Origin: Tsuneonella dongtanensis
Lineage (GTDB): Bacteria > Pseudomonadota > Alphaproteobacteria > Sphingomonadales > Sphingomonadaceae
Direction of reading: 5' to 3'
Assembly (NCBI RefSeq): GCF_001698205.1
Contig: NZ_CP016591.1
Location: 806,001 to 870,000 of the forward strand
Length of the DNA: 64,000 nt
Numbering within the stretch: the first letter of the stretch is position 1; the number at the start of each line of letters is the position of its first letter. This document shows, in pieces, positions 24,110-47,438 of the stretch. The notes below the pieces were generated by a model. The model had not been told where the DNA came from. It saw nothing but the letters and a program-made list of their open reading frames with translations, and made no database searches. A program made the position numbers and the translations under genes.

Positions 24110-24114
24110 GGATC

Positions 24115-29138: not shown

Positions 29139-29166
29139 GGGGGTGCCGATCGGCACCCCCTTTTTT
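29139..29166. terminator. Rho-independent terminator, usable in both directions
   Basis: A perfect 22-base palindrome (29139-29160) begins GGGGGTGCC and is followed by six T (29161-29166). It ends the receptor transcript. The T run overlaps the stop codon of the convergent beta-helix gene, so that message may end here too. Confidence 0.85.
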
Positions 29167-30130
29167 ATCGGCAATCGGGGGTGAGGAGTTCCGCCAAGCT
29201 GTCGTTCAGGCGCGTTGTTTTCGCGTCGATCTCTGCCCGCGTCGCGAAAGGCTTCGGATTACCCGAGCAGAGCCCGGTCACGGTAACCTTCGCATCGCTT
29301 ACGCGGCCGTTGCGGCGGCCGAAGGTGAACAGCGGCGGGCGTGCCATGCCGTCCGGGACCACGAGGCGGAACCCCTCGATCGTTATGTCGGTGGCGAGGC
29401 GGCCGGTGCCCTCGCGTTGCCCCGCGCGGGCGAACACGCCCTGGTTGTAGCGGGCGGGGCTGTTGGCGATCACGGTCAGGTTGCGAATAGTCGCGTCGCC
29501 CTTTTCCGCCCCCCAGCCGAACTGGATCGGCGCCCCGTTGCGGTTGTGGACGATCGTCACGTCCTCGAATAGCATGCCGCCCGAATAGACCTTCAGCGCG
29601 TCGTCGAAACTGTCGATCAGCACGTCGCGCACGATCGTCCCGTCGCCGCCGCCGACGCCGTCGGTGGTCGCCTCGCCGCGGGTCTCGCGCATCGTCACGT
29701 GCTCGACAGTCAGCGGCCCGCGCGCGAGGATGTGGAACTTGTCGGGGTCGAGCGAGGTGAGGGTGCTGACCGTCACGCGCGCCTTGCTGAAACTCATCAC
29801 CCCGCTGCGGTCGCGCACGTTGGGGTCTGTCGCGGTGTTCCGGTCCAGATCGCCCATGCCGACGAGTCGCGACGTTTCCCGGTCGGCGCCGCGGATCAAC
29901 AGCGGCTTGGCACGTGTGTCGGGAATCAGGAAACTGCCGCGCACCGTCGCGCCCGGACCGATCACGATCTCGTCCCACGCGTCGGGTACGGCGAACTTCG
30001 ACCCGACAACGGTATCGGCATCGTATCGCTGAACGATACGATTCGGTGCGGTAGGCGTACCTGCCGGGGGCGCGGCGCCGACGCAGGCCGCGCAGGCCAG
30101 CGGAAACAGCAGGATAGTTCGCACCGGCAT
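29165..30130 (-). CDS. Secreted right-handed beta-helix protein, paralogue 1
   Basis: 321 residues from ATG 30130, with AGGAG upstream. The leader MPVRTILLFPLACAACVGA is a signal or lipoprotein peptide. Repeated short beta strands (VSTLTSLDPDKFHI, LTVEHVTMRETRG, VRDVLIDSFDDALKVYSGG, ATIRNLTVIANSPARYNQGV) indicate a parallel beta-helix. The conserved motifs TTDGVGGG, DSFDDALKVYS and HNRNGAPIQFGWG resemble active-site turns of GH28/GH49-type enzymes, so an inverting glycosidase or lyase is plausible. GLCSG and the terminal PDCR may form a disulfide. Two paralogues lie at 30135 and 43790. No family could be named. Confidence 0.65.
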   Translation of the reverse strand: MPVRTILLFPLACAACVGAAPPAGTPTAPNRIVQRYDADTVVGSKFAVPDAWDEIVIGPGATVRGSFLIPDTRAKPLLIRGADRETSRLVGMGDLDRNTATDPNVRDRSGVMSFSKARVTVSTLTSLDPDKFHILARGPLTVEHVTMRETRGEATTDGVGGGDGTIVRDVLIDSFDDALKVYSGGMLFEDVTIVHNRNGAPIQFGWGAEKGDATIRNLTVIANSPARYNQGVFARAGQREGTGRLATDITIEGFRLVVPDGMARPPLFTFGRRNGRVSDAKVTVTGLCSGNPKPFATRAEIDAKTTRLNDSLAELLTPDCR

Positions 30131-30134
30131 TCTC

Positions 30135-31097
30135 CTATCGACAATCGGGCGTGACGATCTCGACCGCACCGCCCTGCAGCACTTCGGTCTCGGCATCGAC
30201 CGCGGCGCGATTCCAATAGGCGGGCATGGCTCCCGAGCAGAGTCCGGTCACGGTCACCTTGTAATCGTCGACCTCCAACCCGCTGCGGGTGCCGAACTGG
30301 AATAGCTTAGGTCGCGCCATTCCTTCGGGCACGATCACCTTCAGGCCTTCGATGACCAACGTCGATTCGAGCGGGCCGACGCCGGCCTTCTTGTTGGCGC
30401 GAGCGATGATGCCCTGGTTGTAGAGCGTCGGGCTGTTGGCGATCACCGTGAGGTTGCGGATCGTCGCGCTGCCGCGCTCGGTCCCCCAGCCGAGCTGGAT
30501 CGGCGCGCCGTTGCGGTTCATCGTGATGGTCACGTTGTCGAACGTCATGTCGGGCGAATAGACCTTCAGCGAATCGTCGTAGGTGTCGATTCGCGCATCA
30601 TCGACGCGGGTCCCGCGTCCGCCGCCAATGCCGTCGGTCGTATAGGCCTTGCGGGTATCGACGATATCGACACGCTCGGCCAGCAGCGGACCCCGGCCGA
30701 CGAAGTTGAACTTGTCGGGATCGCGCGAGGTCAGGTCGCGGATCGTGAGCGGCGCAAGCGAAAGACTGGTGATCGCGCTGTGGCTGCGCGCGAAGGCGTT
30801 GCGCTGCTGGATGTGATCATAGGTCCCGGTGCCCTTGAGGACCGACGTTTTGCGATCCTCGCCGCGGATGATCAGCGGACGGCTGCGGGTTTCCGGGATG
30901 GCGATGCTGCCGGTGATCGTCACGTCGGCGCCGATCACGATCTCGTCCCAGTCGTCGGGCGGTTCGAACCGCGAACCGATCGTCGTATCGTGGGAAAAGC
31001 GGGCGCTCGTTCCGACCGAACCATGGGACAGGTCAGCATCGACGGCAGCGCCGGAAACGCCTTGCGCCAACAGCAGCAGCGCGCCCAAGAAAGACAT
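30135..31097 (-). CDS. Secreted right-handed beta-helix protein, paralogue 2
   Basis: 320 residues from ATG 31097 with leader SFLGALLLLAQGVSGA. It shares its whole plan with the downstream neighbour: DDWDEIVIGADVTITGSI, TTDGIGGGRGT, IDTYDDSLKVYSPD, MNRNGAPIQLGWGTERG, NLTVIANSPTLYNQG, GLCSG and a terminal TPDCR. The two genes are four bases apart and are a tandem duplication. It is transcribed away from the sulfatase at 31179 from a shared promoter region. Its function is unknown; a carbohydrate-active beta-helix enzyme is the best guess. Confidence 0.65.
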   Translation of the reverse strand: MSFLGALLLLAQGVSGAAVDADLSHGSVGTSARFSHDTTIGSRFEPPDDWDEIVIGADVTITGSIAIPETRSRPLIIRGEDRKTSVLKGTGTYDHIQQRNAFARSHSAITSLSLAPLTIRDLTSRDPDKFNFVGRGPLLAERVDIVDTRKAYTTDGIGGGRGTRVDDARIDTYDDSLKVYSPDMTFDNVTITMNRNGAPIQLGWGTERGSATIRNLTVIANSPTLYNQGIIARANKKAGVGPLESTLVIEGLKVIVPEGMARPKLFQFGTRSGLEVDDYKVTVTGLCSGAMPAYWNRAAVDAETEVLQGGAVEIVTPDCR

Positions 31098-31129
31098 CGT
31101 TCGGCTTCCCACACCCGGATTTGAATGAT

Positions 31130-31140
31130 AAGTCATATGA
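31130..31140. promoter_or_regulatory. Possible degenerate FadR-type operator
   Basis: AAGTCATATGA shares AAGTCATA with the 26048 site and keeps one half-site. It sits in the 81-base divergent gap between the beta-helix pair and the sulfatase. It would lie inside the sulfatase gene if the ATG at 31125 were the start, which argues for the TTG at 31179. Confidence 0.35.
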
Positions 31141-31178
31141 AAGAACCTGCCGTTCGAGGCAAGCATCGGGAGAGCGTT

Positions 31179-32606
31179 TTGCGTCGTTTCTGGATCGTCG
31201 TACTGGCGCTCGCGCTGTTGTCCTGCACCACAGTGCCGGCCCAGCCCGAACCGTCCCGGCTCCCCAACGTAGTCATGTTCATCGCCGACGACCTGTCGCT
31301 GCGCGATGCGGGGCCGTATGGCGCGAAAGTGGTCAAGACTCCCACTCTCGACCACATGGCGAGGGAAGGGCTGACGTTCGATCAGGCCTATGTCGCTTCG
31401 CCGGCGTGCGCTCCCAGCCGCTCGGCGCTGTTCACCGGGCTGATGCCGGAAAAGAACGGGGTGACGGCGAACCACGATTTTACGCGAAAGCCGGGCGTGA
31501 CCTCGCTGATGCACGATCTCGTGGCTAAGGGCTACGAAGTCGCCATATTCGGCAAGGTGGCCCATGGGATCACCAATCCCAACGAACACTGGGACCACGG
31601 CGTCACCTATAAGGGAAAGCCGCAGCTCGATTTCGACGAACTCCACCAGTTCCTCGACAAGCGCGATCCGAAGAAGCCGTTGTTTCTGCTCGTCGGGACG
31701 CGTCATCCGCACGTTCCGTGGATCCGCGAGGGTTACCGCCTCGATCCGAAGGACGTCGATTTGCCGAACAAGGCGGTGGATACGCCGCAGACGCGCATCA
31801 ACCGGGCCCAGTACTACGAGTCCGTCGCCCGCATGGACGAGGACCTCGACAAGACGCTCGACCTCGCGGCGACCTATCTCGAACTGCAGGATACCCTGGT
31901 GCTGTTCAGCTCCGACCACGGGGCACAATGGCCGTTCGCGAAGTGGAACCTCTACGATGAGAGTGTGCGCGTGCCGCTGCTGGCGGTCTGGCCCACCCGG
32001 ATCGCGCCCGGGACGCGCACCTCCGGCATGGTAAGTTGGATCGACATCGTGCCAACGGTGATCGACCTTGCCGGGGCAAAGATGAGCGGCGCGCGGGATG
32101 GGCGCTCGTTCGCTACGGTGCTGTTCGGCAAGGCGGACGAGCATCGCGACGTGATCCTCACGACCCATACCGGCGACGGACCGATGAACGTCTTTCCAAT
32201 GCGCTCGGCGCGGACCGACTGCTTTGTCTACGTACGCAACCTCCACCCCGAGTTCGCCTACACCACGCACATCGACAAGGCGGGCGACAAGTGGACCAAC
32301 GAATACTGGCAGACCTGGCTGGAGCGAGCGAAGACCGATCCGGCCGCGGCCGAGATCGTGCGGCTCTATCGTCGCCGTCCGGCCGAGGAGCTGTACGACC
32401 TGCAGGCCGACCCCGGCCAGCGCACGAACCTGATCGCCGATCCGCGCTTTACGAGCGAACTCGCGAGATTGCGCGCGGCGGTCGATCGATACAGCCGCGA
32501 ATCGAACGATGAAAGCGAAGTCGCCGCGAAGCCGACCATGCCGGAAGAGCTGCCCGACGTGGACCGCGCGATCGCGGGCGTCGTGGGCCAGGCGCCCTTG
32601 AAATAG
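31179..32606 (+). CDS. Cys-type S1 sulfatase, iduronate-2-sulfatase-like, lipoprotein
   Basis: 475 residues from TTG 31179. GGGAGAG (31168-31174) lies four bases upstream, and the start yields the leader RRFWIVVLALALLSC with a lipobox; ATGs at 31125 and 31137 have no such site. NVVMFIADDLSLRD and LFSSDHGAQWPFAKW form the metal site, and Cys77 in ACAPSRSALFTG is the formylglycine residue. TRHPHVPW is a further conserved active-site segment. It is followed by a GH43-like gene 23 bases on. The product would desulfate fragments at the membrane. Confidence 0.87.
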   Translation: MRRFWIVVLALALLSCTTVPAQPEPSRLPNVVMFIADDLSLRDAGPYGAKVVKTPTLDHMAREGLTFDQAYVASPACAPSRSALFTGLMPEKNGVTANHDFTRKPGVTSLMHDLVAKGYEVAIFGKVAHGITNPNEHWDHGVTYKGKPQLDFDELHQFLDKRDPKKPLFLLVGTRHPHVPWIREGYRLDPKDVDLPNKAVDTPQTRINRAQYYESVARMDEDLDKTLDLAATYLELQDTLVLFSSDHGAQWPFAKWNLYDESVRVPLLAVWPTRIAPGTRTSGMVSWIDIVPTVIDLAGAKMSGARDGRSFATVLFGKADEHRDVILTTHTGDGPMNVFPMRSARTDCFVYVRNLHPEFAYTTHIDKAGDKWTNEYWQTWLERAKTDPAAAEIVRLYRRRPAEELYDLQADPGQRTNLIADPRFTSELARLRAAVDRYSRESNDESEVAAKPTMPEELPDVDRAIAGVVGQAPLK

Positions 32607-32629
32607 ACGAATCGGACGGGAGAACAGGG

Positions 32630-33676
32630 ATGATGCAGCGTCGCGCGATGATGAAGGGGATGGGTGCAGCGGTCGCGGCGGGCGCGATGCCGGACCTCGC
32701 ATTGGCCAAGGGAAACAGCTTCACCTGGCAGAATCCCATCTTCGACGGGATCACCGGCGGCATCCGCGATGCGCAGGTCCTCCGCGATGGCGGCCGCTGG
32801 CACCTCGTCGGAACGGCGCCGGAATTCTGGACGGGCCCGAACCTCGGGGTCCGCATTTTCTCGTCCGATACCCTGACGAGCTGGGGCGAGGAGCGCCTTC
32901 TGATCGACCGAAGCAAGCTCGACCCGTCGGTCTGGTACTACGATCGGTTCTGGGCGCCCGAGATTCACAGGATCGAGGGGAAGTACTGGCTGGTCGTCAA
33001 CTGCCGCAACGAGAGCGAGGCGCACAAGCACAGCCACGGCACGCTGCTCGCGCGGGCCGATGCGCTCGATGGGCCCTACGAGATATTGACCCCCAAGCAG
33101 CCGCTCGTGACCGGCAACGACATGACGATCTTCACCGACGACGATGGTCAGACCTTCGGCTACTGGAACCAGGAGAAGGTCATCAAGGGCGGGCGCCTGT
33201 GGCTCGACGGCGGCAAGTTCCTCGGCGAGCCGTGGGACTGCTTCTACGTCGGCGGGCCGCAGGCGTGGGACAAGATCGGGATCGAGGGCCCCTATGTCAT
33301 CAAACGCGATGGCCGATACTACATGTTCTACTCGAGCTGGTCGCGCGGCTACGAAATCGGTTATGCCACCGCCGACCGGCCCGAGGGGCCGTGGACGAAG
33401 TTTTCCGGCAACCCGATATACGGTGCGCAGAACGAGCGGGAGTGCGAAAAGGCCGGTCTCGCTTGCAATGTCGACACCAGAACGCCCTATCGCGCGGTCG
33501 GTCACAACGAGGTGTTCACCGGCCCCGACGGGCGGTTGTGGATCAGTTGCCACGGCATCCTGCGCGACGGGCCTCATGCGGGAATACCCTCGCTCGTGAT
33601 CGAGCCGATCGATTTCGTGAATGGCGAAATCCGTATCAAGGGCCCGACCTCGACCCCGCAGACGGTGACCTGGTAG
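32630..33676 (+). CDS. GH43/GH117-like propeller glycosidase, secreted
   Basis: 348 residues from ATG 32630, with GGGAGAACAGGG upstream. The leader MMQRRAMMKGMGAAVAAGAMPDLALA resembles a Tat signal. Propeller repeats and probable catalytic positions are GGIRDAQVLRDGGRWHLVG, RFWAPEIHRIEGKYWLVVN, GNDMTIFTDDDGQTFGYWN, IEGPYVIKRDGRYYMFYSS (likely acid Glu) and VGHNEVFTGPDGRLWIS. The last pattern also occurs in GH117-type enzymes, so the exact family is open. It forms a two-gene unit with the sulfatase upstream and ends three bases from the convergent GH43 gene. Confidence 0.75.
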   Translation: MMQRRAMMKGMGAAVAAGAMPDLALAKGNSFTWQNPIFDGITGGIRDAQVLRDGGRWHLVGTAPEFWTGPNLGVRIFSSDTLTSWGEERLLIDRSKLDPSVWYYDRFWAPEIHRIEGKYWLVVNCRNESEAHKHSHGTLLARADALDGPYEILTPKQPLVTGNDMTIFTDDDGQTFGYWNQEKVIKGGRLWLDGGKFLGEPWDCFYVGGPQAWDKIGIEGPYVIKRDGRYYMFYSSWSRGYEIGYATADRPEGPWTKFSGNPIYGAQNERECEKAGLACNVDTRTPYRAVGHNEVFTGPDGRLWISCHGILRDGPHAGIPSLVIEPIDFVNGEIRIKGPTSTPQTVTW

Positions 33677-33679
33677 CGG

Positions 33680-35548
33680 CTACCTCGCGGGTCCGACGGG
33701 GCGCGGAACGGGCTTTCCATCGGCGTCGAATTCCAGCGCGAGTACGCCCAGGCGCATGTGATAGGGCGCGGTCGTGTCGGACCCGAACATGGTGGTGTAG
33801 ACCTGCCCGCCCTTGCCTTGGAAGACCGTGGCATGCCCCGCGTGCGGGACCGCGAAGCGCCGTTCGCTCCACGGACCGGTCGGGCTGTCGGATGTCGCGT
33901 AATAGAGGTCGTAGGTACCCTCGTGGCTGCCGCTCCAGTCGGTGCCGAACAGGTAGAACCTGTCGCCGATCTTGAGCGCCGAGCAACCCTCGTAACCCAT
34001 CGCCACCCCGCCCGCCGCGCGTTGCTGGCCGTACTTATCGGCAAACCCGTTGCGCCGTGCGTTGAGCTTCTGGAGCTGGCACCCGCCGTAGAAATAATAG
34101 AGATCGGCCCCGTTCTCGAACAGGAATCCGTCGATGCCTTTTTCGACGAGAGGGCCGTCGGTGACGCTTTCGTACGGACCCTCGGCCCTGTCGGTTTTCG
34201 ACTTGAACAGCCAGGTCTGGCCCGATCCGGTCCAGATCGAGAAGGTCAGGTACCAGGCCTTGTCGTGTGCCGACCAGAAGATCTCCGGCGCCCACAGCTT
34301 GGGGTTCGCTTCGGCCGGCAGGGTGACGCCAAGATCCTTCTCCGAGAACTTCCAGGCGAAACCCCGGTATTGCCAGTCCTTCAGGTCGCGGCTGCGCCAG
34401 AGTTCAATGCCGCCTTTTGGCAGTTCCCAGCCCCATTTCTTGGTCCCGACGAGGTAGTACCAGCCGTCCGCTCCCAGCGCGATCGAAGGATCGCGGATCG
34501 CCTCGCCCGCCAGCGACGGCACGGGCAGCAACGAACCGGCGGGTCCGGCTTCCAGCACGCGGGACCCGTCGGGGCGCAAGCGCCCGGCGGCGTTCGTTTC
34601 CAACGGCACGAGGGCGGTCTTGCCGGGCAGCAAGGCGTTCTCGTCCCCAGGCGTCGCCGCGACGAGCGCGGCCAGCTTGCCGCCGGGCATCGTCACGAGT
34701 TGGCCAGCACCCCCGTGCGTCACCGCGAGATAGCGGCGCGTGTAGGGGCCGGCCGGTCCACCCTCGCTTTCCGCGACGAACATGTCGGTCGGCGTCGCGC
34801 CCAGGCGTTCGTCGGGAGCTGCGGCGACGAACAGGTACTTGCCGTCGCGCTTGAGGATTTGCCCGCCGCTCGTCCCGATGCGGTCTAGCACTGGCGGCAG
34901 GCCCCATTTCTTGGGCGGCGCATCGTGGGCGGGGACGAGGCGCTCGATCTTGCCTTCGATCTTCGTGAGGTCGGGAGAGAGCCGGGCGACCGTGCCGCCG
35001 TCGAAGGCAAGCCAGACACTCCCGTCGTCGTCCTGGAACAGCGTCGGATGCCGTCCGAACTCGGTCAGACGCGCGTGATGATGCCACGGCCCTTCGGGTT
35101 GGCCGCTGTCGCTTCTCAGCACGTGAATACCGCCGAAATCGTACGAGAAGGCGAGGTAAAGCGCCCCGCCGATCGCGTGCAGTTCGGGGGCGACGATCGT
35201 GCGCGTCTTGTCCGACAGCGTGTGCCCGGGAAGCGGCCAGGGGGCATCCGACCAGTGACCGGTCTTCTCGGTCCCGTCCCACAGATCGGGCAGCCGCCGC
35301 CACGTCTGGAGGTCGGTCGAGCGCCAGAGCGGAATCGTCACTCCCGTAGCCCCCGGGATCGTCCCGGTCAGGTACCAGAAATCCCCGATCCGGCTCATCT
35401 GCGGATCGACCAGCGGCTCCTCGACCAACGGCGTCACGGGTCGCGCATCGAACTGGAGATTGATCGCCGCCTGGTCTTGCTCGGCCGGGTCGGCGGACGG
35501 GGCCGCTGCTGCCGCCGCCAGCATCGCAAAGGCCGCGGACATACTCAT
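33680..35548 (-). CDS. Secreted protein with two consecutive GH43-like propellers
   Basis: 622 residues from ATG 35548, overlapping the lactonase stop (ATGA); the ATG at 35542 is an alternative. A short Ala-rich leader (SMSAAFAMLAAAAAA) is present. Residues 40-330 form one propeller (PLVDPQMSRIGDFWYLTGT, IVAPELHAIGGALYLAFS, GRHPTLFQDDDGSVWLAF, TSGGQILKRDGKYLFVAA). Residues 345-620 form a second (AIRDPSIALGADGWYYLVG, LWAPEIFWSAHDKAWYLTF, GIDGFLFENGADLYYFY, VAMGYEGCSALKIGDRFYLF). Both keep the Asp/Glu positions expected of GH43, so it may be a bifunctional debranching enzyme. It shares a transcript with the lactonase. Confidence 0.78.
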   Translation of the reverse strand: MSMSAAFAMLAAAAAAPSADPAEQDQAAINLQFDARPVTPLVEEPLVDPQMSRIGDFWYLTGTIPGATGVTIPLWRSTDLQTWRRLPDLWDGTEKTGHWSDAPWPLPGHTLSDKTRTIVAPELHAIGGALYLAFSYDFGGIHVLRSDSGQPEGPWHHHARLTEFGRHPTLFQDDDGSVWLAFDGGTVARLSPDLTKIEGKIERLVPAHDAPPKKWGLPPVLDRIGTSGGQILKRDGKYLFVAAAPDERLGATPTDMFVAESEGGPAGPYTRRYLAVTHGGAGQLVTMPGGKLAALVAATPGDENALLPGKTALVPLETNAAGRLRPDGSRVLEAGPAGSLLPVPSLAGEAIRDPSIALGADGWYYLVGTKKWGWELPKGGIELWRSRDLKDWQYRGFAWKFSEKDLGVTLPAEANPKLWAPEIFWSAHDKAWYLTFSIWTGSGQTWLFKSKTDRAEGPYESVTDGPLVEKGIDGFLFENGADLYYFYGGCQLQKLNARRNGFADKYGQQRAAGGVAMGYEGCSALKIGDRFYLFGTDWSGSHEGTYDLYYATSDSPTGPWSERRFAVPHAGHATVFQGKGGQVYTTMFGSDTTAPYHMRLGVLALEFDADGKPVPRPVGPAR

Positions 35549-36429
35549 CCGAGGCGAACGCACATCTCGGCCAATCCGCGCGCGCCGGGACGGGCGAAGA
35601 AGAGCTGACCCGCTTCCGGCTCCGCTGCCCGGCGGGCGTCGTCGAGATCGGTCCAGGCGCTCGTTGCGGCGAGGATATCGAGATCGGGGCCCCCGAAGGC
35701 CGGACAGGTAATTTGCGATGCGGGTAACGACACGCGGTCGATTTCGCGCCCGCTCGTGGGTTCGAGGCAGACGAGCGCCCCTCCGCCCCACAGCGCCTGC
35801 CAGATATCCCCCGCGGCATCGACACTGGCACCGTCGGGCCAGCCTTCTTCCGGCGTGAATTGCCGCACGACCCGATCGAACTCCGCCGTCTCGCCGTAGC
35901 GATAGGCGTTGAGCGCGCCGGTTGTGGTATCGGCGTGATACATCGTCGCGCCGTCGGGCGACCAGCAGAGGGCGTTGGTGATGCCGATCCCTTCGACCAG
36001 CGAGGTGAGCGAACCGTCGGCCTCGAGGCGCCACAGCGTGCCCTTGCGCTCCCCGCCCGCCTTGTCCGCATCCTCGACCATCGTGCCGGCGACGAAACGG
36101 CCCTGCCGGTCGACCCGGCCGTCGTTGAAGCGCACGCCGGGGATCGAGACGGGTTTCGCGATCCACTCGACTTCGCCGCTGGCGATCGCGAACTGCGCGA
36201 AACCCGCCTCGAACGCCGCGAGGATCACGCCGTCGATGTCGGTCAGCGCTAGCGACCCGAGCCGCTGGGGCAGGTCCGTTTCGGTCAGTTCGCGATCCGG
36301 CCACGAAAGCCTGAACAGCTTGCGCCCCTCGATGTCGGTCCAGCGGAACGACTGATCCCGCTCGTCCCAGACGATCCCCTCGCCCAGGCAGTTGGCGATG
36401 GTGACGGGCGGGAGCGAGTGATCGGTCAT
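35545..36429 (-). CDS. SMP-30/gluconolactonase-type sugar lactonase
   Basis: 294 residues without a signal peptide, so cytosolic. The six-bladed SMP-30 propeller is shown by GEGIVWDERDQSFRWTDIEG, GVRFNDGRVDRQGRFVAG, GITNALCWSPDG and GWPDGASVDAAGDIW. Metal ligands fit Glu17, Asn152 and Asp199, with Asn102 near the substrate. It would open an L-arabinono- or D-galactono-gamma-lactone made by the SDR encoded at 53865, the second step of the non-phosphorylative pentose pathway. Its coupling to an exported GH43 is unusual but suggests joint regulation. Confidence 0.85.
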   Translation of the reverse strand: MTDHSLPPVTIANCLGEGIVWDERDQSFRWTDIEGRKLFRLSWPDRELTETDLPQRLGSLALTDIDGVILAAFEAGFAQFAIASGEVEWIAKPVSIPGVRFNDGRVDRQGRFVAGTMVEDADKAGGERKGTLWRLEADGSLTSLVEGIGITNALCWSPDGATMYHADTTTGALNAYRYGETAEFDRVVRQFTPEEGWPDGASVDAAGDIWQALWGGGALVCLEPTSGREIDRVSLPASQITCPAFGGPDLDILAATSAWTDLDDARRAAEPEAGQLFFARPGARGLAEMCVRLG

Positions 36430-36510
36430 GCGCGAAAACCTATCGCACGCCGCCCGGCAGGCAAGTGCGCGATCGCTCGCACGAGCCAGGCCGGGCAGGC
36501 GCCCTCGAGA

Positions 36511-39321
36511 TCAGAACCGACCCGAGATGCCGAAGGTCCAGCGCCGCCCGGTGTCGCGGAAATCGCGCGTGATCTGCGGCAGGTTCAGGTAGCGGTGGAC
36601 GTAGCTGTTGGTAATGTTGGTCACCCCGCCGAAGACCGAAAACTGCTTGGTGATCTGGTAACTCGCATTGGCATCGAGCTGATCGTAACCGTCGTTGTAA
36701 AGGTTCAGCCCGTTCTCGGTGCCGTTGTAATACCCGTCGCGGTAGTTGTACGCGAGCCGGACGCTGAAACCGTACTTCTCGTAGAAACCGATCAGGTTGT
36801 AGCTCTTCTTGGAAAGCTGCGGCAGCGGCAGGATCTCGCCCGAGATCAGGTCGAATTGCTGTGCCGGCTGAGTGGAATCGGTGAGGGTGAAATTGGCGAC
36901 CACGCCGAAGCCGGAGAGAAACCCGGGAAGGAAATCGAACGTCGACTGCAGCCCGACTTCGAAGCCCTTGATGGTGCCGGAGTCACCGTTGTCCGGGAAG
37001 GTGATGGTGATTTCGTCCGGGAATCCGTCGTTATCGTTATCACGATCGGGAAGAACCACTGTGCGCGTGCTGTCGACGAAGAACGTGCTGACATCCTTGT
37101 AGAACGCCGCTGCGCTGAACAGGCTGTTGCGGCCGAAATACCATTCGAACGAGGCATCGTACTGCGTCGCCTTGAATGGACGGAGGTCAGGGTTGCCCGA
37201 ACGAGCCTGGAAGCTGTTTCCGGGCAAGCTGTACGATGGCGAGAGGTCCGCAGGATCGGGCAGCGCGAGAGTCTTCGCCGCGGCGAGGCGGAACAGCATG
37301 TCGCGCTGGATTTCGAAAGTGATGTTTGCCGAAGGCAGGAACTCGCCCGAACGCGAACTCTGTTGGTCGAAAATAAGGTCGTTACCCTGGATCACGTTCG
37401 CCGAGACACGCCGGTCGACCTGGACATAGCGCCCGCCGAAATTACCCCGGAACGGGATCGAGCCGAGATTGCCCGAGAAGTCCATCTGCGCGTAGCCGGC
37501 CCAGTTGTTCTCGAGGATATCGAAGCTGTACGTCTGAAGCAGCGGGAATTGCGCGGTCGGCTGGAGCGCCTCCTGCAGGTCACGATATTGTGCCTGGGAC
37601 AGGTTGACCAAAGTGAACCAGTTTTGCGGCAGCGAGGCATCATAGCGCGCGAAAATCGGGTCCTCGACATTAGTGATCAACCCCTGGAATTCGGGGATGT
37701 TGCTGATGTAGCGGTTATTTCCTTCGTTCGATGACACGCTGCCGAAGCGGCGGCCAGTGGCACCGCGACGGGCGACCCTGACACCGATCCTGAGATCGCG
37801 GAATAGTCCACTGTCGAGGTGCCAGTTGGTGTCGAAGCGGAGTTCTTTCTCGGTGACGCCGCGAAAAGTGTCACTGATGAAGAAGTTCGAGAACTGCCAC
37901 CCTGCCGGATCGGAAAAGGAATAACCCGGCGCGAAGGTCCAGTCGAACGACGGCGGATTGTTCACAGAGTCCGTGAAGTCGTAGAGCAGGCGGGTGAACT
38001 GGCGCGGGAACGTGGGATCGAGGTTGAAACCGTCAGCCACCGAGAAGTTGTTAGTGATGTTGAGCGCCTTGTTGTTGAGATCGGCGGTGCTCAGAGAAAG
38101 GTGCACATCGACGAGGTCGCTCTCGTAATCCGCGGTACCGGCGATCGAGTACTGCCGATTCGTTCCGAACGTGTTGTTCGGATTCACACGAACGAAGTCG
38201 AAATTCTTCGTGTTGTTGTTCTGGTTATCGATGCCGATGATCGACGAAAGCAGGAAGCCGAAGGTCTGCGTTCCCGTTTCGGTGCCGACCGGATCGCGAC
38301 TCACCGTCAGCAACCCGCTGTTTTCGGCGTTGGGGTTTGGCGCGTACCACTGGTTGTTGTTGTTGAGGTTGAACGCGATCTTCTGCTCGTTGTTCTCCGA
38401 ACTAAACTTCGAATAGTTGCCGGTCACGCTGAACGTCAGGCTCGACGTCGGGGCCCACTGGAATGTGCTGTCGATGCCGATGCGCTCGCGGCTGAAATCG
38501 AACTGCTGGATGCGATAGACCTGCGGGCGAAAGACGTCGTAGGTTGGGAAATTCGGATAGGTGGTCGACGCGGCGCTGCCGTTGTTCGAACGAATCTGGT
38601 TGGGGACGGCGAGCTTGGCCCAACCGTTGCTGCCGATCTGGTCGGTGCGCGAATTGTACTTCTCGTAGCTTCCGGTGATGAGGAAGCCCATCTCACCCGC
38701 GCCCGCGTCCCACTTGGCGCTGAAAAGGCCGGTCAGGCTGGGATCGATGCCCTTGCCGAGCAGCTCGGGGTACTGGCCCTGCGCGCGGAAGGTTATGAGG
38801 TTATCCTTGGTCGTCAGCGGCTTGCGCGTGACGAGGCGCACGGTCGCGCCAAGCGCGCCCTCTACATCGGAAGCCGAGGGTGACTTGACGATCTCGACCC
38901 CGGCGAAGAGCTGGGAGGAAATGCCCGAGAAATCGTTCGAGCGATTCTCGGGGTTGTCGGGCAGCAGCGAACGACCGTCGACCTCGACGCGGTTCTGGCT
39001 GATGCCGCGCACCGTGAAGCCCGCGCCCTCGCCGGCGTCGTCGCGCCCGATCTGTACGCCGGTGACGCGCTGCATGGCTTCGGCGACGTTCTGGTCTGGC
39101 AGCTTGCCAATGTCCTCGGCGGAAATGACGTCCTTGATCTGGTCGGCCGCACGCTTCTTGCTGGCGGCATCCTCAAGGCTCGCACGGATGCCCGAGACCA
39201 CGATCTCGTCCTCGGCCGGCGCGGCGTCCTGGGCGGCGACGGCCGGGGCGAAACAGGCGACGGCGAGCGAAACGATACTGGCGGTCGCGCGAAGCGACGC
39301 GGTCCGGCGTGCGGTAATCAT
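36511..39321 (-). CDS. TonB-dependent receptor (outer-membrane glycan importer)
   Basis: 936 residues from ATG 39321, with GAGGAGGAGG upstream. The signal peptide ends near VAAQDAAP and is followed by the TonB-box-like DEIVVSGIRAS. The plug carries SAEDIGKLPDQNVAEAMQRVTGVQI, FTVRGISQNRVEVDGRSLL and KSPSASDVEGALGATVRLVT. The barrel ends TFGISGRF. It is a paralogue of the receptor at 26161 within the same SusD-free group, but with different loops (an asparagine-rich stretch and DRDNDNDGFPDE), suggesting a different oligosaccharide ligand. It is probably regulated by the operator at 39390. Confidence 0.93.
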   Translation of the reverse strand: MITARRTASLRATASIVSLAVACFAPAVAAQDAAPAEDEIVVSGIRASLEDAASKKRAADQIKDVISAEDIGKLPDQNVAEAMQRVTGVQIGRDDAGEGAGFTVRGISQNRVEVDGRSLLPDNPENRSNDFSGISSQLFAGVEIVKSPSASDVEGALGATVRLVTRKPLTTKDNLITFRAQGQYPELLGKGIDPSLTGLFSAKWDAGAGEMGFLITGSYEKYNSRTDQIGSNGWAKLAVPNQIRSNNGSAASTTYPNFPTYDVFRPQVYRIQQFDFSRERIGIDSTFQWAPTSSLTFSVTGNYSKFSSENNEQKIAFNLNNNNQWYAPNPNAENSGLLTVSRDPVGTETGTQTFGFLLSSIIGIDNQNNNTKNFDFVRVNPNNTFGTNRQYSIAGTADYESDLVDVHLSLSTADLNNKALNITNNFSVADGFNLDPTFPRQFTRLLYDFTDSVNNPPSFDWTFAPGYSFSDPAGWQFSNFFISDTFRGVTEKELRFDTNWHLDSGLFRDLRIGVRVARRGATGRRFGSVSSNEGNNRYISNIPEFQGLITNVEDPIFARYDASLPQNWFTLVNLSQAQYRDLQEALQPTAQFPLLQTYSFDILENNWAGYAQMDFSGNLGSIPFRGNFGGRYVQVDRRVSANVIQGNDLIFDQQSSRSGEFLPSANITFEIQRDMLFRLAAAKTLALPDPADLSPSYSLPGNSFQARSGNPDLRPFKATQYDASFEWYFGRNSLFSAAAFYKDVSTFFVDSTRTVVLPDRDNDNDGFPDEITITFPDNGDSGTIKGFEVGLQSTFDFLPGFLSGFGVVANFTLTDSTQPAQQFDLISGEILPLPQLSKKSYNLIGFYEKYGFSVRLAYNYRDGYYNGTENGLNLYNDGYDQLDANASYQITKQFSVFGGVTNITNSYVHRYLNLPQITRDFRDTGRRWTFGISGRF

Positions 39322-39389
39322 GGCATCCTCCTCCTCGACCGCCGGGCCCAGCAATTGGTGGCACCTCGACGATCGCGGAGGAGAATAGA

Positions 39390-39400
39390 TTGTATTACAA
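39390..39400. promoter_or_regulatory. FadR-type operator upstream of the second TonB-dependent receptor
   Basis: TTGTATTACAA is an exact TNGT-N3-ACNA match with perfectly inverted TTGT and ACAA arms, extended on the right to ACAAAT. It lies 69 bases before the receptor start and just after the end of the GHL15-like gene, in the only AT-rich stretch there. Confidence 0.6.
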
Positions 39401-39411
39401 ATAATGCAATA

Positions 39412-40632
39412 CTAGCGCACGAAAATGTCTCCATCGGCCGCGCCGACTTCGAAGGTTTTCGCTCGGCGGCCGGTGGAAGCCTGCGTGCGATCCGCATCGA
39501 ACGAAACCGACACCGTCTTGTTGCCAAAGGGATTGTAGACAGCGGTGCCGTTGGTGAATTGGCGGCGCCAGCTGCCGTCCGGCGCCATCGCGCCCGCCGC
39601 GGTCGGTCTCCCGAGTTTTGTGTCCCAGAACGCGTACCAGTCGTGCAGGTGGTCGGGCGTCTTGAGCGGGTTGGGATCGGCATAGAGGACGAATGCATCC
39701 GATTGCGTGAGACCCATCGTCGTCACCGCCCGCATCCGCTTGAAATCCTTGCGATCGCCCCAGCCCTCAAGAGCATTGACCTTGGGCGAGCGGAACGCTG
39801 CTTCATAATAGCGCAGGGCGCGGCTCATCTTGTCCCAGCCGCACAGCTTGCCCGGTTCGGGGTCGCATTCCATGAACGCGCCGTTGATGAGGTGCGCGTA
39901 CTTCTCGCCGTCCTCGATATCGTCGTGGATATTGACGATGACGATCGCGTCGTCGCCCACCGATCGGCGCACTTCCTCGACGATCGGCAGGTATCCCGAC
40001 CAGTCGAGCATGACGCCATCGTATACGCCGGACTGCACCGCGATGCGCGCTTGCTCGCCCACGTGCCTGATGAAACCGGGGTTCTCGTAATTGAGCATGT
40101 AGTACGGCTCAGGCCCGCCGTCCCACCCGGCTTCGCGCGTGCCGTCGGGGTTGCGTTTCCACCACGGGCTGTCTTCCGGCAGGTAACTGCCCGGCGCATC
40201 GCGCCAGCGGATTTCCATCAGCGTGACCATCGCCGGGTTCAGGCGAAGCAGCTCGATGCGATTCTTGATCGCCTGCGCCAGAGAGGCCGACTTGAATCGG
40301 GTCGACTGGCCGGCATGGGCACCGTCCCATTCGAGGCCGAGCACGAGCGGGGTCTTGAAGCCGATCTGGCTGACCGGCTCCTCCCACAACAGATCATGCT
40401 TGGCCGCTGCGGCGATGCGCTGCGCGATCGTGTCCTGCGGGTACTGAGCCGGCATGTCGAGCGGGTTCCACGCTTGGTAGATCGACGGGAAATCGCGCAA
40501 CGCCATGCGCTCCGCCGGCGTCGGCAGCACCTTGCCGCCCAGCATCACCGGGTGCGCGCCGCTACCGGCTGGAACGGTCGCGCAGCCGGAAAGGATCAAG
40601 GCGGCGGCGAGGGCGGGAAGGGCGCTTTTCAT
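39412..40632 (-). CDS. Putative glycoside hydrolase of GHL15-like type, lipoprotein
   Basis: 406 residues from ATG 40632, with GGAGACAG upstream. The leader MKSALPALAAALILSGC ends in a lipobox. The body is a TIM-barrel-like protein: TPLVLGLEWDGAH, VTLMEIRWRDAPGSYLP, SGVYDGVMLDWSGYLPIV, VIVNIHDDIEDGEKYAHLINGAFMEC and AFVLYADPNP. Asp in MLDWSG and Glu in FMEC are candidate catalytic residues, a pattern I associate with putative GHL15 hydrolases. The substrate is unknown. It is 22 bases downstream of the cytosolic GH27 gene and likely in the same transcript. Confidence 0.6.
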   Translation of the reverse strand: MKSALPALAAALILSGCATVPAGSGAHPVMLGGKVLPTPAERMALRDFPSIYQAWNPLDMPAQYPQDTIAQRIAAAAKHDLLWEEPVSQIGFKTPLVLGLEWDGAHAGQSTRFKSASLAQAIKNRIELLRLNPAMVTLMEIRWRDAPGSYLPEDSPWWKRNPDGTREAGWDGGPEPYYMLNYENPGFIRHVGEQARIAVQSGVYDGVMLDWSGYLPIVEEVRRSVGDDAIVIVNIHDDIEDGEKYAHLINGAFMECDPEPGKLCGWDKMSRALRYYEAAFRSPKVNALEGWGDRKDFKRMRAVTTMGLTQSDAFVLYADPNPLKTPDHLHDWYAFWDTKLGRPTAAGAMAPDGSWRRQFTNGTAVYNPFGNKTVSVSFDADRTQASTGRRAKTFEVGAADGDIFVR

Positions 40633-40654
40633 GACTGTCTCCGGAAGTGGGCTG

Positions 40655-41938
40655 TCAGCCGACACGCAACAGGCGCGCGCCGTGGGGAGGGATGTCGAGC
40701 GGCGATCCGTCGGCCGTCGCGCCGGACCAAAGGTCGAAAAGCGACCCATCGCCGATGTCGATGCCTGCGTGCGCGGTGTCGACCGAAAGGGAATCTTCGC
40801 CGACGTTGAACAGCGCCACGTAGCGCCCGCCGTCCTCGGCGCCAGCCGCCCAAGCGATCAGGTTTCCATCGCGCAGGATTTCGCGTCCCCCGCTGGATCG
40901 CTGATTGACCCCGATCACCGCGTCGTTGGTGATCAGCGCCAGCGTGTCGGCATCCGTTTCGGGCAGGTGTCCGCCGAACATCAGCGGGCTGCGGGCGATC
41001 GCCCAGAGGGTCAGCATCGTCACCTGCTCGTCGCGGGTGAAGTTGGTCGACCGGGGTTCGCCCACTTCGGCCCGCAGCGAAATGCGCCCGAGCGGCAGCA
41101 TGTCGGCGTCCGGCCAGCTTTGCGGACCGGAAAAGCGCGCCCACTTGGCGCAGTGGTCGAACATGCGCCGCAGCGCCGCCCAATCGTCCCAAAAGTCGGG
41201 CGAGATCCGCCACATGTGCGCGCGATCCTGCATGTGTGCGACCTGCGCGTACTGCGCGGCACCCGGGCTGAGGCTGAGCGTCACCGGCCGCCCGGCCTTC
41301 GCGATCGCGCGGGCGAGGCCGTCGACCTCGTCGGCACGATAGGGGCTGCCGCCTTCGCCGGTCCACGAATTCATGTCGTCGGCCTTGACGAAATCGACGC
41401 CCCAGCCCGCCCACAACTCGGCGAGGCTGTCATACCAGGCCTGCCCGCCGGGATGTGCCATGTCCATGGTTCGGAAGCCGTGAAACCAGGGGCACCCTTC
41501 GAGCGGCAGACCGATGTCGGCGCAAGTGTGCTCGCTGCCCTTGATCGGGGTGGCTTTTTCGACCGCTTCCCAGGGAACGCCGCGCATGATGTGAATGCCG
41601 AACTTGAGGCCCAGTGCGTGGACCTTGTCTGCGAGCGGCTTGAAGCCCATGCCGTCCGCAGCACTCGGATGCAGGTCCGGATTGGGCATGGGTCGTCCCC
41701 ATTCGTCGAGAAGCAACGGCGGGCGCTGCATCTTGTACTGCTCGCCGAGCGCGGTCAGGCCGCGCCCGTACCATGCCAGGTCGACGACCACCGTGTCCCA
41801 ACCGTGAGAGAGCAGGTGTTCGGCCATGTACTCGGCGTTGGCCAGCACCTCGGCCTCGGTCACGTCGACGCCGAAACAGTCCCAGCTGTTCCACCCCATC
41901 GGAGGAGTTGGCGCGCTCGGAAACTTGAGGGCGCTCAC
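40655..41938 (-). CDS. GH27 glycosidase, cytosolic (alpha-galactosidase or beta-L-arabinopyranosidase)
   Basis: 427 residues from GTG 41938, overlapping the symporter stop (GTGA). No signal peptide precedes PPMGWNSWDCFG. Asp187 in FVKADDM is the likely nucleophile and Asp248 in WRISPDFWDDW the likely acid/base. A short C-terminal beta domain (YVALFNVGEDSLSV) closes the protein. It is a paralogue of the lipoprotein enzyme at 8003, but its location implies that the symporter imports an intact glycoside that is cleaved inside the cell. The order symporter, GH27, GHL15-like suggests one transcript. Confidence 0.87.
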   Translation of the reverse strand: MSALKFPSAPTPPMGWNSWDCFGVDVTEAEVLANAEYMAEHLLSHGWDTVVVDLAWYGRGLTALGEQYKMQRPPLLLDEWGRPMPNPDLHPSAADGMGFKPLADKVHALGLKFGIHIMRGVPWEAVEKATPIKGSEHTCADIGLPLEGCPWFHGFRTMDMAHPGGQAWYDSLAELWAGWGVDFVKADDMNSWTGEGGSPYRADEVDGLARAIAKAGRPVTLSLSPGAAQYAQVAHMQDRAHMWRISPDFWDDWAALRRMFDHCAKWARFSGPQSWPDADMLPLGRISLRAEVGEPRSTNFTRDEQVTMLTLWAIARSPLMFGGHLPETDADTLALITNDAVIGVNQRSSGGREILRDGNLIAWAAGAEDGGRYVALFNVGEDSLSVDTAHAGIDIGDGSLFDLWSGATADGSPLDIPPHGARLLRVG

Positions 41939-43701
41939 AGCAGCACCGAGAACACGAGCATGAAACCGAACATCAGCACGATCGCGCCGATCGACCAGAA
42001 TGGCACCGATTTGTACCACGGCCCGCCGAGCCCGCCGCCGAGGTTCATCTTCCGGAAGTTGAAAGCAAGGTCGTCGGTCACCTGCGCCGGTAGCGGGGGC
42101 GGAGTGGCGAGGCTGATCAAGGTGCACAGCACCATGCACAGCGCCCAGTTGAGCAAACCCTGGTTGGCGTACGGCACCAGCAAGTCGGGTGCCGAGCCGG
42201 TCTGCACCATTATCTTGACCGCTATGCCGAACGCGAACCCCAGGATCACGGTCCACAGTGCGCCGGTGCCGTTTATGCGTCGCCACAGAGTCCCGAGCAG
42301 GAAGATCGCCGAGAAGGGCGGGGCGAAGAAAGTGTAGAGTTCCTGGATGTAGACGAACAGGCTTTCGCCGAGCGTGCTGATCCAGATGCCGAGGCCGATC
42401 GCCAGCGCGAGGACGACCGCGGTGATGATCCGTCCCAATCCGACGAGCGAATGCTCGCTCGCCGCCGGATTGAAGAAGCGCTTGTAGAAATCGAGCGTCA
42501 GGATTGTCGAAGTGGAGTTGAGCACTGCGGCCACCGTCGACTGGATCGCCCCGAACAGCGCGGCGAGCAGCACACCCTTGATACCGATCGGGATCAGCGT
42601 CTGGATCATCGAGACGTAAGTCTGGTCGGCGACGGGCCTGACAGCATCCAGCGATTCGGCGCTCGACAGGATTTGCGGATTGAGCGCGAACCAGATCAGG
42701 CCCGGCACGACGACGATGAACGGCAACAGCAGCTTGAGGTAGCTGGCGAACGTCATCCCCATGCGGGCGTGATAGATGTCCTTCGCCGCGAAGATGCGCT
42801 GGACCAGGAACTGGTTGATCACCGTGTACCACAGTCCGATGTAGAAGAAGCTGAAGACCCAGTGCGTCCAGGGATTAGTCTGGTGGGTCAGCGGCTGGAT
42901 CACCGAGAGTCGATCGTATTCGTTACTTCCGACAATATCGGGCGCCCATTTGACGATCGCCGCGGCGTACTCCGCGCCTTTCCCCGCGTTGCGCGAAAGC
43001 ATCTCCCCGAAGCCCGCGACGATGTCGCCGCCCCCGAGCGCGGCCAGCCCGAACATCGTTACGAGCAGGCCTCCGCCGACCATGATGGCGATGGTAAGGA
43101 CGTCCATCCAGGCGACCGATTTGAGGCCTCCGTAGATCGCCCAGCCGCCCGCCAGAAGGCCGATCAGTGCGATCATCAGGTAGAGACCTGCGTTGCCACC
43201 CGCCTGCAGTCCCAGAACCTGGTCGAGCGCGATGATCTTCGAAAAGGCGAGGCCGCCGCCGTAGATCACCGGCGCGAGGAAAGCGACGATGTTGGCAATC
43301 ACCGTCACGGCCGCGAACAGAAAGCGCAGTTGCGGGTTGAATCGCCGCTCGAGGAATTCGGGTGCCGTGAAGACCTTGGCGCGCAGCAGGAACGGGATGA
43401 ACAGCCAGATCAGGAACATGAAGGCGATCACCGTGGACCACTCTCCGGTCGCGACAGCGATGCCGTAGATGAAGGCAGCGCCGATCAGCCCGATGAAGTG
43501 TTCGGTCGAGATATTCGCGGCGATGTACGAAGAGCCGACCACGTACCATGGCAGGCTGCGCCCGGCGAGGAAGTAGTCTTCCGATTCATCTGTGTCGGCA
43601 CTCCGGCGCCCGGCCCACAGACCGATCGCGCTTAGTCCGAGCAGATAGAGCGCGAAGGCGCCCCAGTCCCATCCGGTGAGCGACACCGAGGCTTCCGTCA
43701 T
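41935..43701 (-). CDS. Sodium:solute symporter (SSF/SLC5), glycoside or sugar uptake
   Basis: 588 residues from ATG 43701, with GGGAGAG at 43708-43714; an ATG at 43716 lies upstream of that site and is less likely. About 14 hydrophobic helices are visible. SSF signatures include SEDYFLAGRSLPWYVVGSSYIAANIS and AVLNSTSTILTLDFYKR, and the C-terminal part ends in a membrane helix (GAIVLMFGFMLVFSVLL). The family moves sugars or sugar acids with sodium across the inner membrane. Coupling to a cytosolic GH27 points to a galactoside or arabinoside as cargo. Confidence 0.88.
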   Translation of the reverse strand: MTEASVSLTGWDWGAFALYLLGLSAIGLWAGRRSADTDESEDYFLAGRSLPWYVVGSSYIAANISTEHFIGLIGAAFIYGIAVATGEWSTVIAFMFLIWLFIPFLLRAKVFTAPEFLERRFNPQLRFLFAAVTVIANIVAFLAPVIYGGGLAFSKIIALDQVLGLQAGGNAGLYLMIALIGLLAGGWAIYGGLKSVAWMDVLTIAIMVGGGLLVTMFGLAALGGGDIVAGFGEMLSRNAGKGAEYAAAIVKWAPDIVGSNEYDRLSVIQPLTHQTNPWTHWVFSFFYIGLWYTVINQFLVQRIFAAKDIYHARMGMTFASYLKLLLPFIVVVPGLIWFALNPQILSSAESLDAVRPVADQTYVSMIQTLIPIGIKGVLLAALFGAIQSTVAAVLNSTSTILTLDFYKRFFNPAASEHSLVGLGRIITAVVLALAIGLGIWISTLGESLFVYIQELYTFFAPPFSAIFLLGTLWRRINGTGALWTVILGFAFGIAVKIMVQTGSAPDLLVPYANQGLLNWALCMVLCTLISLATPPPLPAQVTDDLAFNFRKMNLGGGLGGPWYKSVPFWSIGAIVLMFGFMLVFSVLL

Positions 43702-43733
43702 GTGGCGCTCTCCCATTTGCGCATTTATCTTAT

Positions 43734-43744
43734 TTGTCCTACTT
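43734..43744. promoter_or_regulatory. Putative FadR-type operator between symporter and beta-helix genes
   Basis: TTGTCCTACTT inside TTATTTGTCCTACTTATT matches TNGT-N3-AC and misses only the last A. It lies in the 88-base divergent gap, 33 bases before the symporter start and 46 before the beta-helix gene. Confidence 0.5.
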
Positions 43745-43789
43745 ATTGGTTATCGAGGCGACGGTCAACGTCGGGTTGGGAAGGATTGC

Positions 43790-44818
43790 ATGAAACATCC
43801 CTTGTCGAATTGTATCGTGTTTTCAGCCCTTGCGCTGGCCGCGCAGGTGGCTTCGGCCCAAACCTACCGCGAGCCGGTCAACCATCGGGCCCGATCGGTC
43901 AAAGCTCCGATCGTCTCGGACCATGCGGGCCACCGGATCGCGCGGTTCGATCACGATGCGTGGATCGGCTCGATGTGGCAGCCGGACGACGGGGTTGACG
44001 AGGTCGTGATCGGGCGCAACGCGACCGTCACGGGGTCCATCCTTGTGCCCTCCAGCCGCACGAAGCCGCTGACGATCCGCGGCGAGGATCGCCATACGTC
44101 CCGGCTCGTCGGAACCGGTACGTTCGAGTGGAATCGCGAGGAAAGCGACCTGTCGCGCAGGCACAGCGCGATCTTCGTCGACACAACGCGGCCGGTGACG
44201 ATCCGCACGCTTACCTCGCTCAATCCGGACAAGTATCATTTCGTCGGGTACAACCACACCCAGTTGATCGTCGAGGATGCGGACATCATCGACGACCGAC
44301 TGGCGTACACGACCGATGGTATCGGTGGTGGCCGCGGGACCACCGTGCGTAACGTGTTCATCGATACATATGACGACGGCATCAAGGTCTATGCCCCGGA
44401 CATGGTGATCGAGGATGTTACGATCGTTCACAACCGCAACGGTGCCCCGCTGCAATTCGGTTGGGGGGGTGAGCAGGGTTCGGCGACGATCCGCAATCTG
44501 ACCGTGATCGCCAACGAACCGCAAATCTATAACCAGGGCGTATTCGCCCGGGCAGCCCAGCGCGGCGAGAAGAACGCGCGCCCGCTTGCCGGGAGCGCGA
44601 AGGTCGAGGGGTTTCGGCTGATCGTGCCCGAGGGCAAACGCAGCCCGCCGCTGTTCATGTGGGGGACGCCCGACGGGCAGCAGATCAAGGACTTCACGCT
44701 GACCGTGGAGGGTCTCTGCTCCGGCGCGGAACCGACCTATCGCCAACGCGGCGATTTCGACGTGGTGGAGCGCGGCAACAGCGACAAAGTCAGGCTCGTG
44801 ACGCCCGACTGCCGCTAA
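43790..44818 (+). CDS. Secreted right-handed beta-helix protein, paralogue 3
   Basis: 342 residues from ATG 43790, with GGGAAGGA upstream and signal peptide MKHPLSNCIVFSALALAAQVASAQ. It shares the family plan with the pair at 29165 and 30135: TTDGIGGGRGT (174-184), IDTYDDGIKVY (Asp192, Asp195, Asp196), HNRNGAPLQFGWGG (214-227), NLTVIANEPQIYNQGV, GLCSG and terminal TPDCR. The Asp cluster on one face of a beta-helix is what a GH28/GH49-like inverting hydrolase would show. It is transcribed divergently from the symporter and ends four bases from the convergent regulator gene. Confidence 0.65.
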   Translation: MKHPLSNCIVFSALALAAQVASAQTYREPVNHRARSVKAPIVSDHAGHRIARFDHDAWIGSMWQPDDGVDEVVIGRNATVTGSILVPSSRTKPLTIRGEDRHTSRLVGTGTFEWNREESDLSRRHSAIFVDTTRPVTIRTLTSLNPDKYHFVGYNHTQLIVEDADIIDDRLAYTTDGIGGGRGTTVRNVFIDTYDDGIKVYAPDMVIEDVTIVHNRNGAPLQFGWGGEQGSATIRNLTVIANEPQIYNQGVFARAAQRGEKNARPLAGSAKVEGFRLIVPEGKRSPPLFMWGTPDGQQIKDFTLTVEGLCSGAEPTYRQRGDFDVVERGNSDKVRLVTPDCR

Positions 44819-47332: not shown

Positions 47333-47427
47333 TCTCATCCCCTCGTGACCCTGCCGGGGCAGGTGTCGGTCCAATAACCAATTTCGACAACGATCCCTAC
47401 AAGGTTGCCGATTGCGTTAAATATTAT

Positions 47428-47438
47428 TTGTCATATTA
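47428..47438. promoter_or_regulatory. Putative FadR-type operator between IlvD/Edd and AraD1 genes
   Basis: TTGTCATATTA within ATATTATTTGTCATATTATA has one perfect half-site (TTGT) and a degenerate second. The left 15 bases match the 12632 site except for one position. It lies in the 155-base divergent gap between two catabolic genes. Confidence 0.5.

Follow-up and report, generated by a model that had tools for sequence, protein, structure and literature searches.

What is the task of three similar beta-helix proteins whose genes stand beside sulfatase, receptor and symporter genes in Tsuneonella dongtanensis? The genes lie in a stretch of 64,000 nucleotides (NZ_CP016591.1, positions 806,001-870,000), called the window here, whose own numbering is used below. 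An earlier interpretation made from the letters alone, the sequence-only reading, took the three proteins, named A, B and C in this study, for an unassigned and perhaps undescribed carbohydrate-active family. Our comparisons indicate that they are almost certainly related to glycoside hydrolase family 49 (GH49): they are a divergent GH49-related subfamily, a short variant without the N-terminal domain, and not a new fold. Judged from the surrounding genes, they would probably cut a polymer of sulfated L-arabinose in the cell walls of green algae.

Among the sulfated polysaccharides in the walls of Bryopsidales and Cladophorales, arabinans and galactans are described as the most important, and an arabinan of Codium is described as a strong anticoagulant (PMC7550628). 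A literature search, with most subscription journals outside it, found no paper on an enzyme for the backbone of a sulfated arabinan or galactan. If the proposal is true, it would offer a gene set and a marker for algal arabinan turnover, as well as tools for arabinan structure analysis.

Three paralogous genes

29165..30130, minus strand: protein A, short GH49-related, 321 amino acids
30135..31097, minus strand: protein B, short GH49-related, 320 amino acids; alternative upstream ATG possible at 31136
43790..44818, plus strand: protein C, short GH49-related, 342 amino acids; Asp176, Asp195 and Asp196 align with the GH49 catalytic triad

All three paralogues reported earlier are present, with pairwise identities of 48-55%: A and B share 55% over 288 residues (BLASTP, E=2e-110), A and C 48% over 341 residues (BLASTP, E=3e-96), and B and C 53% in 314 columns. 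Because of the BLASTP identities and E values the resemblance is not a matter of chance. The motifs TTDGxGGG, ID[TS][YF]DDx[IL]KVY, NRNGAP[IL]Q[FL]GWG and a final TPDCR, given as common to the trio, were found again in each protein. A and B form a minus-strand tandem with a 4-base gap and B upstream, and C is divergent from a sodium:solute symporter gene; the neighbours named before are likewise in place, namely a TonB receptor adjoining A, a sulfatase adjoining B and the symporter adjoining C. Export of all three was claimed as well, and each does have an N-terminal hydrophobic stretch, but this was judged from the hydropathy maximum and by eye rather than by a signal-peptide program.

Relationship to GH49

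A profile search against known beta-helix families had been proposed, and when it was run against Pfam and the PDB only GH49 was significant. In the Pfam scan A and B had no match, and C had GH28 and beta-helix matches which were all sub-threshold, GH28 (PF00295) reaching 18.6 bits against a cut-off of 22.9 (E=0.0011). The NCBIfam scan gave no match for A, B or C. The N-terminal Ig-like domain of GH49 (PF17433), present in the long Catenovulum adriaticum protein L014, had no match in the three at E<=10. In the PDB, phmmer with C (E<=10) returned four distinct sequences, all of GH49, with dextranase 6nzs at 2.4e-9; the same four came back at E<=1 in hmmsearch with a profile of A, B and C (6nzs at 4e-12) and with a 10-member profile of short proteins that takes in the window's three (from 1.8e-19 for dextranase 6nzs to 1.2e-4). 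No GH28 chain appeared in the PDB profile searches at E<=1, and GH110 was absent from the matches of the phmmer search and of both profile searches.

"Unassigned family" was therefore too strong a term, as both the sequence profile and the fold put the proteins next to GH49. "Undescribed family" fails in so far as they are GH49-related and survives only in a reduced form: the clade is short and divergent, and none of the Pfam and NCBIfam models reaches its cut-off with it.

Three other candidates were rejected: a wholly new fold or family, in view of the GH49 matches in the PDB searches and in Foldseek; plain GH28, being under the Pfam cut-off and missing from the PDB profile searches; and a phage origin, as C had no phage match at E<=0.01. 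In viral contigs, 85 candidate stretches were checked as well, and no relative is encoded in any of them.

Structure model and active site

The AlphaFold2 model of C, built with 6 sequences, is a beta-helix with a predicted template modelling score of 0.77 and a mean predicted local distance difference test (pLDDT) of 74.4, the blocks from 41 to 240 averaging 66-98. Foldseek with this model ranked GH49 first, with nothing but GH49 chains among its 6 matches at E<=0.001; model and Foldseek thus both give the right-handed parallel beta-helix catalytic domain of GH49. In VIA-align, GH28 and GH49 cannot be told apart: each has Z of 20-23, and tailspikes of unrelated families reach 21. This is expected, because GH28 and GH49 belong to one clan and fold, with other beta-helices near.

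The catalytic triad of DexKQ is Asp420/439/440, accompanied by Thr419, Gly421, Asn461 and Trp469 (PMC6723167, available part), and Thr175, Asp176, Gly177, Asp195, Asp196, Asn217 and Trp225 of C match these residues in identity and spacing. In an alignment of 19 members (17 short, the window's three among them, and 2 long), Asp176, Gly177, Asp195, Asp196, Tyr201, Gly224 and Trp225 are kept in 19/19 and Asn217 in 15/19. The acidic turn, which had been likened to the sites of inverting beta-helix glycosidases, is the GH49 catalytic Asp triad (376/395/396 in Dex49A), while the chemistry itself is predicted by homology. The broader idea of a carbohydrate-active beta-helix of predicted inverting type, with an acidic active site and in a sulfatase-rich locus, was right.

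Lyases, esterases and tailspikes have the same fold and the C-terminal part of C is poorly modelled, so A, B and C might be polysaccharide lyases or non-catalytic glycan-binding beta-helices. We consider this highly improbable, as the full triad is kept together with Gly177, Tyr201, Gly224 and Trp225 throughout the alignment; the three are very probably active hydrolases. That they would be alpha-glucanases of dextranase or isopullulanase type, as their nearest solved relatives are, is also very unlikely, though less so. Dextranase Trp304, Tyr306, Trp507, Asn529 and Asn555 align with other residues in C (by hand count in a weak alignment), and 39 distinct neighbouring open reading frames, covering part of the window, gave no Pfam match to GH13, GH15, GH31, GH66 or GH97. 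The five differences would suit an altered substrate, with the reserve that this part of the alignment is weak.

Relatives and phylogeny

There are 14 short members outside the window: four on one plasmid of C. adriaticum, two in C. agarivorans, three in C. maritimum, one in Alteromonas sp. KUL49 and four in the Alteromonadaceae genome G1173. A contig pattern scan gave three loci with core patterns and nothing with an earlier set, probably because the latter came from less conserved stretches. In genome samples, 6/295 Alteromonadaceae match (E<=1e-15), including weak matches in G1261 (within a 949-amino-acid frame) and G1329 (in two partial frames), and the host's own genome is the single match in its family (1/397, E<=1e-10), class (1/385, E<=1e-10) and phylum (1/398, E<=1e-8).

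The core-region tree splits 17 short from 7 long rows with support 99/98, and in the full-length tree of the 17 short rows the window trio is one clade (97/98); the three copies therefore probably arose by duplication in the host's lineage. The deeper branching order is not settled, because long branches meet and the position of the long protein GH49L_Cad_573 is unsure. A 509-type short gene of C. agarivorans lies inside a single open frame of 1239 amino acids (L054, 3683-7351), which also carries a homologue of a DUF7133/discoidin/cytochrome-like protein encoded by a separate neighbouring gene in C. adriaticum. A literature search on C. adriaticum found no paper.

Gene content of the locus

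The following genes surround A, B and C (percentages are identities):

9554..11311, minus strand: sulfatase
11065..12582, minus strand: sulfatase
12473..14155, plus strand: GH43; 44% to C. adriaticum
17811..20000, minus strand: Kelch-GH43
19742..21403, minus strand: sulfatase
21485..22951, plus strand: sulfatase; 58% to C. adriaticum
22979..24109, plus strand: GH43
23917..25980, plus strand: DUF5060 protein; 36% to C. adriaticum
26083..29109, plus strand: TonB-dependent receptor
31125..32606, plus strand: sulfatase, CxPSR motif
32630..33676, plus strand: GH43; 41% to C. adriaticum GH43
33680..35548, minus strand: GH43, two matched stretches
35545..36429, minus strand: SMP-30 family, candidate arabinonolactonase; no NCBIfam match
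36511..39354, minus strand: TonB-dependent receptor; 38% to the receptor adjoining the C. adriaticum 601-type gene
39412..40749, minus strand: GHL15-like protein, below the Pfam cut-off (26.2 against 27 bits); homologues in C. adriaticum (53%) and Persicobacter (49%)
40655..41932, minus strand: GH27; Abp beta-L-arabinopyranosidase is the nearest structure with a named activity; specificity position occupied by Leu
41935..43716, minus strand: sodium:solute symporter; 66% to C. adriaticum
44823..45560, minus strand: GntR/FCD regulator; 47% to C. adriaticum
45608..47374, minus strand: IlvD/EDD dehydratase; 819 bits with the L-arabinonate dehydratase model (cut-off 882), above cut-off with broader dihydroxy-acid dehydratase subfamily models
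47317..48489, plus strand: GguC/AraD1 family; 447 bits, cut-off 340
48520..50151, plus strand: second sodium:solute symporter; 62% to C. adriaticum
50225..51844, minus strand: aldehyde dehydrogenase; 2,5-dioxovalerate dehydrogenase is the best NCBIfam name (128 bits against 750)
52141..53865, plus strand: second IlvD/EDD dehydratase; 838 bits with the L-arabinonate dehydratase model (cut-off 882)
53865..54632, plus strand: SDR; D-xylose 1-dehydrogenase is the best NCBIfam name (277 bits, cut-off 400)
54655..55356, plus strand: second GntR/FCD regulator

All five window sulfatases have the CxPSR motif. Around the window, at 806-870 kilobases (kb), lie 8 of about 13 sulfatase genes of the genome (within 799-876 kb; 16 pieces, paired by us), and every GH43 match of the genome (9 pieces, one under cut-off) falls within 804-841 kb. 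A further weak GH43 match stands at about 7092-7766 on the minus strand (38 bits, cut-off 32.2), and a TIM-barrel isomerase-like gene (14148-15916) followed by one with a 3-keto-disaccharide hydrolase domain lies inside the locus. A tRNA-Leu near the left edge of the sulfatase- and GH43-rich region (L048 10087-10173; G000:C1 796087-796173) is a possible integration site. The GHL15-like protein, with no PDB match at E<=0.01, is a candidate new glycosidase, 49-53% identical to module homologues from Bacteroidota and Gammaproteobacteria.

Clues to the substrate

A substrate is suggested because the locus holds sulfatases, GH43s, an arabinopyranosidase-like GH27, two symporters and candidate oxidative L-arabinose genes. 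The GH27 matches the beta-L-arabinopyranosidase Abp at 1.3e-113, the best named alpha-galactosidase being about 295 bits lower (2.8e-24), and its partner in C. adriaticum has Abp as top PDB match. The position of Abp Ile67 holds Asp in alpha-galactosidases and Ile or Glu in arabinopyranosidases (PMC4598101, available part); in the window GH27 it is Leu by hand count, and thus not Asp. Among eight GH27 rows, the five symporter-linked ones read Asp-Leu and two were unmatched by the motif used.

The C. adriaticum cluster carries genes for L-arabinose isomerase, ribulokinase and epimerase (araA/araB/araD), and the window has candidates for an oxidative route, namely the SDR, the SMP-30 protein, two IlvD, GguC/AraD1 and the aldehyde dehydrogenase. 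The candidate for AraD1, an enzyme that acts on keto-deoxy-arabinonate, passes its curated NCBIfam cut-off, and both IlvD pass the broader dihydroxy-acid dehydratase subfamily models.

GH28 enzymes cut alpha-galacturonidic bonds. GH110 has a fold and catalytic machinery in common with GH28, GH49 and GH87 and cuts alpha-galactosidic bonds (PMC7939477). Bryopsidales and Cladophorales, freshwater ones included, contain sulfated pyranosic beta-L-arabinans, which are 3-linked in Codium and 4-linked with galactofuranose, rhamnose and xylose in Cladophorales, and beta-L-arabinopyranose (beta-L-Arap) has the C1-C4 configuration of alpha-D-galactopyranose (PMC7550628). In view of this likeness and of the GH110 and GH28 specificities, the beta-L-Arap bond is a plausible target. 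The available part of PMC8540071 deals with a subject other than arabinan.

Recurrence of the module in distant bacteria

C. adriaticum, C. agarivorans, G1173 and Persicobacter each share parts of the module with the window. Symporter and GH27 genes stand side by side in the window, where the GH27 is 42% identical to its C. adriaticum homologue, and likewise in all four other loci in which the pair was seen. A plasmid of Persicobacter sp. (Bacteroidota) has a GHL15-symporter-GH27 run (49, 52 and 46% to the window), with a long GH49-like gene in its vicinity. The arrangement at gene C has a parallel in G1173, where the symporter of this pair is divergent from a short GH49-related gene and GntR comes next, but in the opposite orientation to the window's. 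Sulfatase homologues occur within about 10 kb of A, of B and of 9/14 short members outside the window; the queries of this count were window and C. adriaticum proteins, which favours C. adriaticum, and some flanks were shorter (at least 4.5 kb). The five outside members without one are the three of C. maritimum, that of KUL49 and one of G1173. The 601-type short genes at L020 and L021 (Alteromonas KUL49, C. maritimum) are among those with no scored neighbour type. C. adriaticum, which has the fullest related cluster, is recorded from "algae".

Proposed function

At the level of sequence, the gene set, the GH49 relationship, the Asp triad and the recurrence in distant bacteria are shown. Beyond this we favour, with some reserve, the view that sulfated pyranosic beta-L-arabinan is hydrolysed, with inversion, by A, B and C as exported single-domain enzymes related to GH49; cleavage of beta-L-Arap bonds is given the same qualified preference, and endo action is a tentative assignment with slightly less than even chances. 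Within the DD pair, one residue (Asp195 in C) would be the general acid, and Asp176 and Asp196 would hold the attacking water. Sulfatases and GH43s would first remove sulfate and branches from the green algal arabinan (or arabinogalactan), A, B and C would then cut the chain at beta-L-arabinopyranosidic bonds, TonB receptors and the two symporters would take up the products, the GH27 would take off terminal beta-L-Arap, and the SDR, SMP-30 protein, IlvD, AraD1 and aldehyde dehydrogenase would oxidise L-arabinose.

Several observations weigh against this proposal. Besides the modest mean pLDDT, the Asp176 block averages 78 and residues 311-335 fall below 50, and C shares only 7 of the 14 residues that GH49 dextranases conserve, five aligning with other residues and two lying beyond the alignment (hand count). 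The top PDB match of the window GH27 is 3cc1, labelled putative alpha-N-acetylgalactosaminidase (1.5e-118), and Leu is not among the residues named for the Ile67 position in the available part of PMC4598101. Both IlvD are under the L-arabinonate dehydratase cut-off, their best PDB match being 8ej0, labelled dihydroxyacid dehydratase, and the SDR and the aldehyde dehydrogenase pass none of the best-named cut-offs looked at. No sulfatase homologue lies within about 10 kb of C or of 5/14 outside members, and all eight scored gene types are absent over this distance from the three C. maritimum genes and the KUL49 gene; since several members are thus without a nearby sulfatase, the link to a sulfated substrate does not extend to every member of the clade. 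The GH27 about 8 kb from the 601-type gene of G1173 is Asp-Asp, the alpha-galactosidase type, and Persicobacter is recorded from "cell culture,soil".

The Asp-Asp GH27 also speaks for a GH110-like action on sulfated galactan or arabinogalactan, in which alpha-D-galactosidic or other axial bonds are hydrolysed and arabinose is only a side-chain sugar; GH110 has a related fold and machinery, and a second GH27 (melibiase) at 8003-9538, adjoining two sulfatases, points the same way. As the symporter-linked GH27s are of arabinopyranosidase type and the catabolic genes indicate L-arabinose, we hold this to be unlikely. Trimming of beta-L-Arap tips from land-plant type II arabinogalactan would agree with the soil record, with the GH43s of the locus and with GH27 beta-L-arabinopyranosidases known from arabinogalactan use (PMC4598101, PMC5853685, available parts); the five window sulfatases and the algal source of C. 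adriaticum make it decidedly unlikely.

Going beyond the algal arabinan proposal, the short clade might be a clan GH-N family in its own right, which left GH49 when its N-terminal domain was lost and acts specifically on pyranosic sulfated beta-L-arabinan. The three paralogues would then suit different sulfation or linkage patterns, and the host would have acquired the enzymes within a transferable module. This whole reading we regard as doubtful. Taken from the sequences, the case is one of ordinary fold and mechanism in a rare, divergent, domain-reduced GH49-related clade, with a coherent guess at the substrate.

Comparison with known systems

GH28 polygalacturonases share fold and clan with A, B and C (VIA-align Z up to 23.3), and the GH110 alpha-1,3-galactosidase shares a triad (Asp321/344/345) and the inverting chemistry predicted for the three (PMC7939477). 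For GH49, PMC9458216 and PMC10316084 serve, in their available parts, as background only. The common ground with dextranases DexKQ (6nzs) and Dex49A (1ogm) and isopullulanase (1wmr) comprises the right-handed beta-helix, an Asp triad with equal spacing and the motifs TDG, DDxxKxY, NG and GW. CAZy lists a sulfated arabinan endo-1,4-beta-L-arabinanase in GH49, with which the predicted activity and family would agree, the comparison being by name only. Unlike the solved GH49 chains of 549-587 amino acids, A, B and C have 320-342, lack the N-terminal Ig-like domain and any Pfam GH49 match, and form a separate branch with other locus content.

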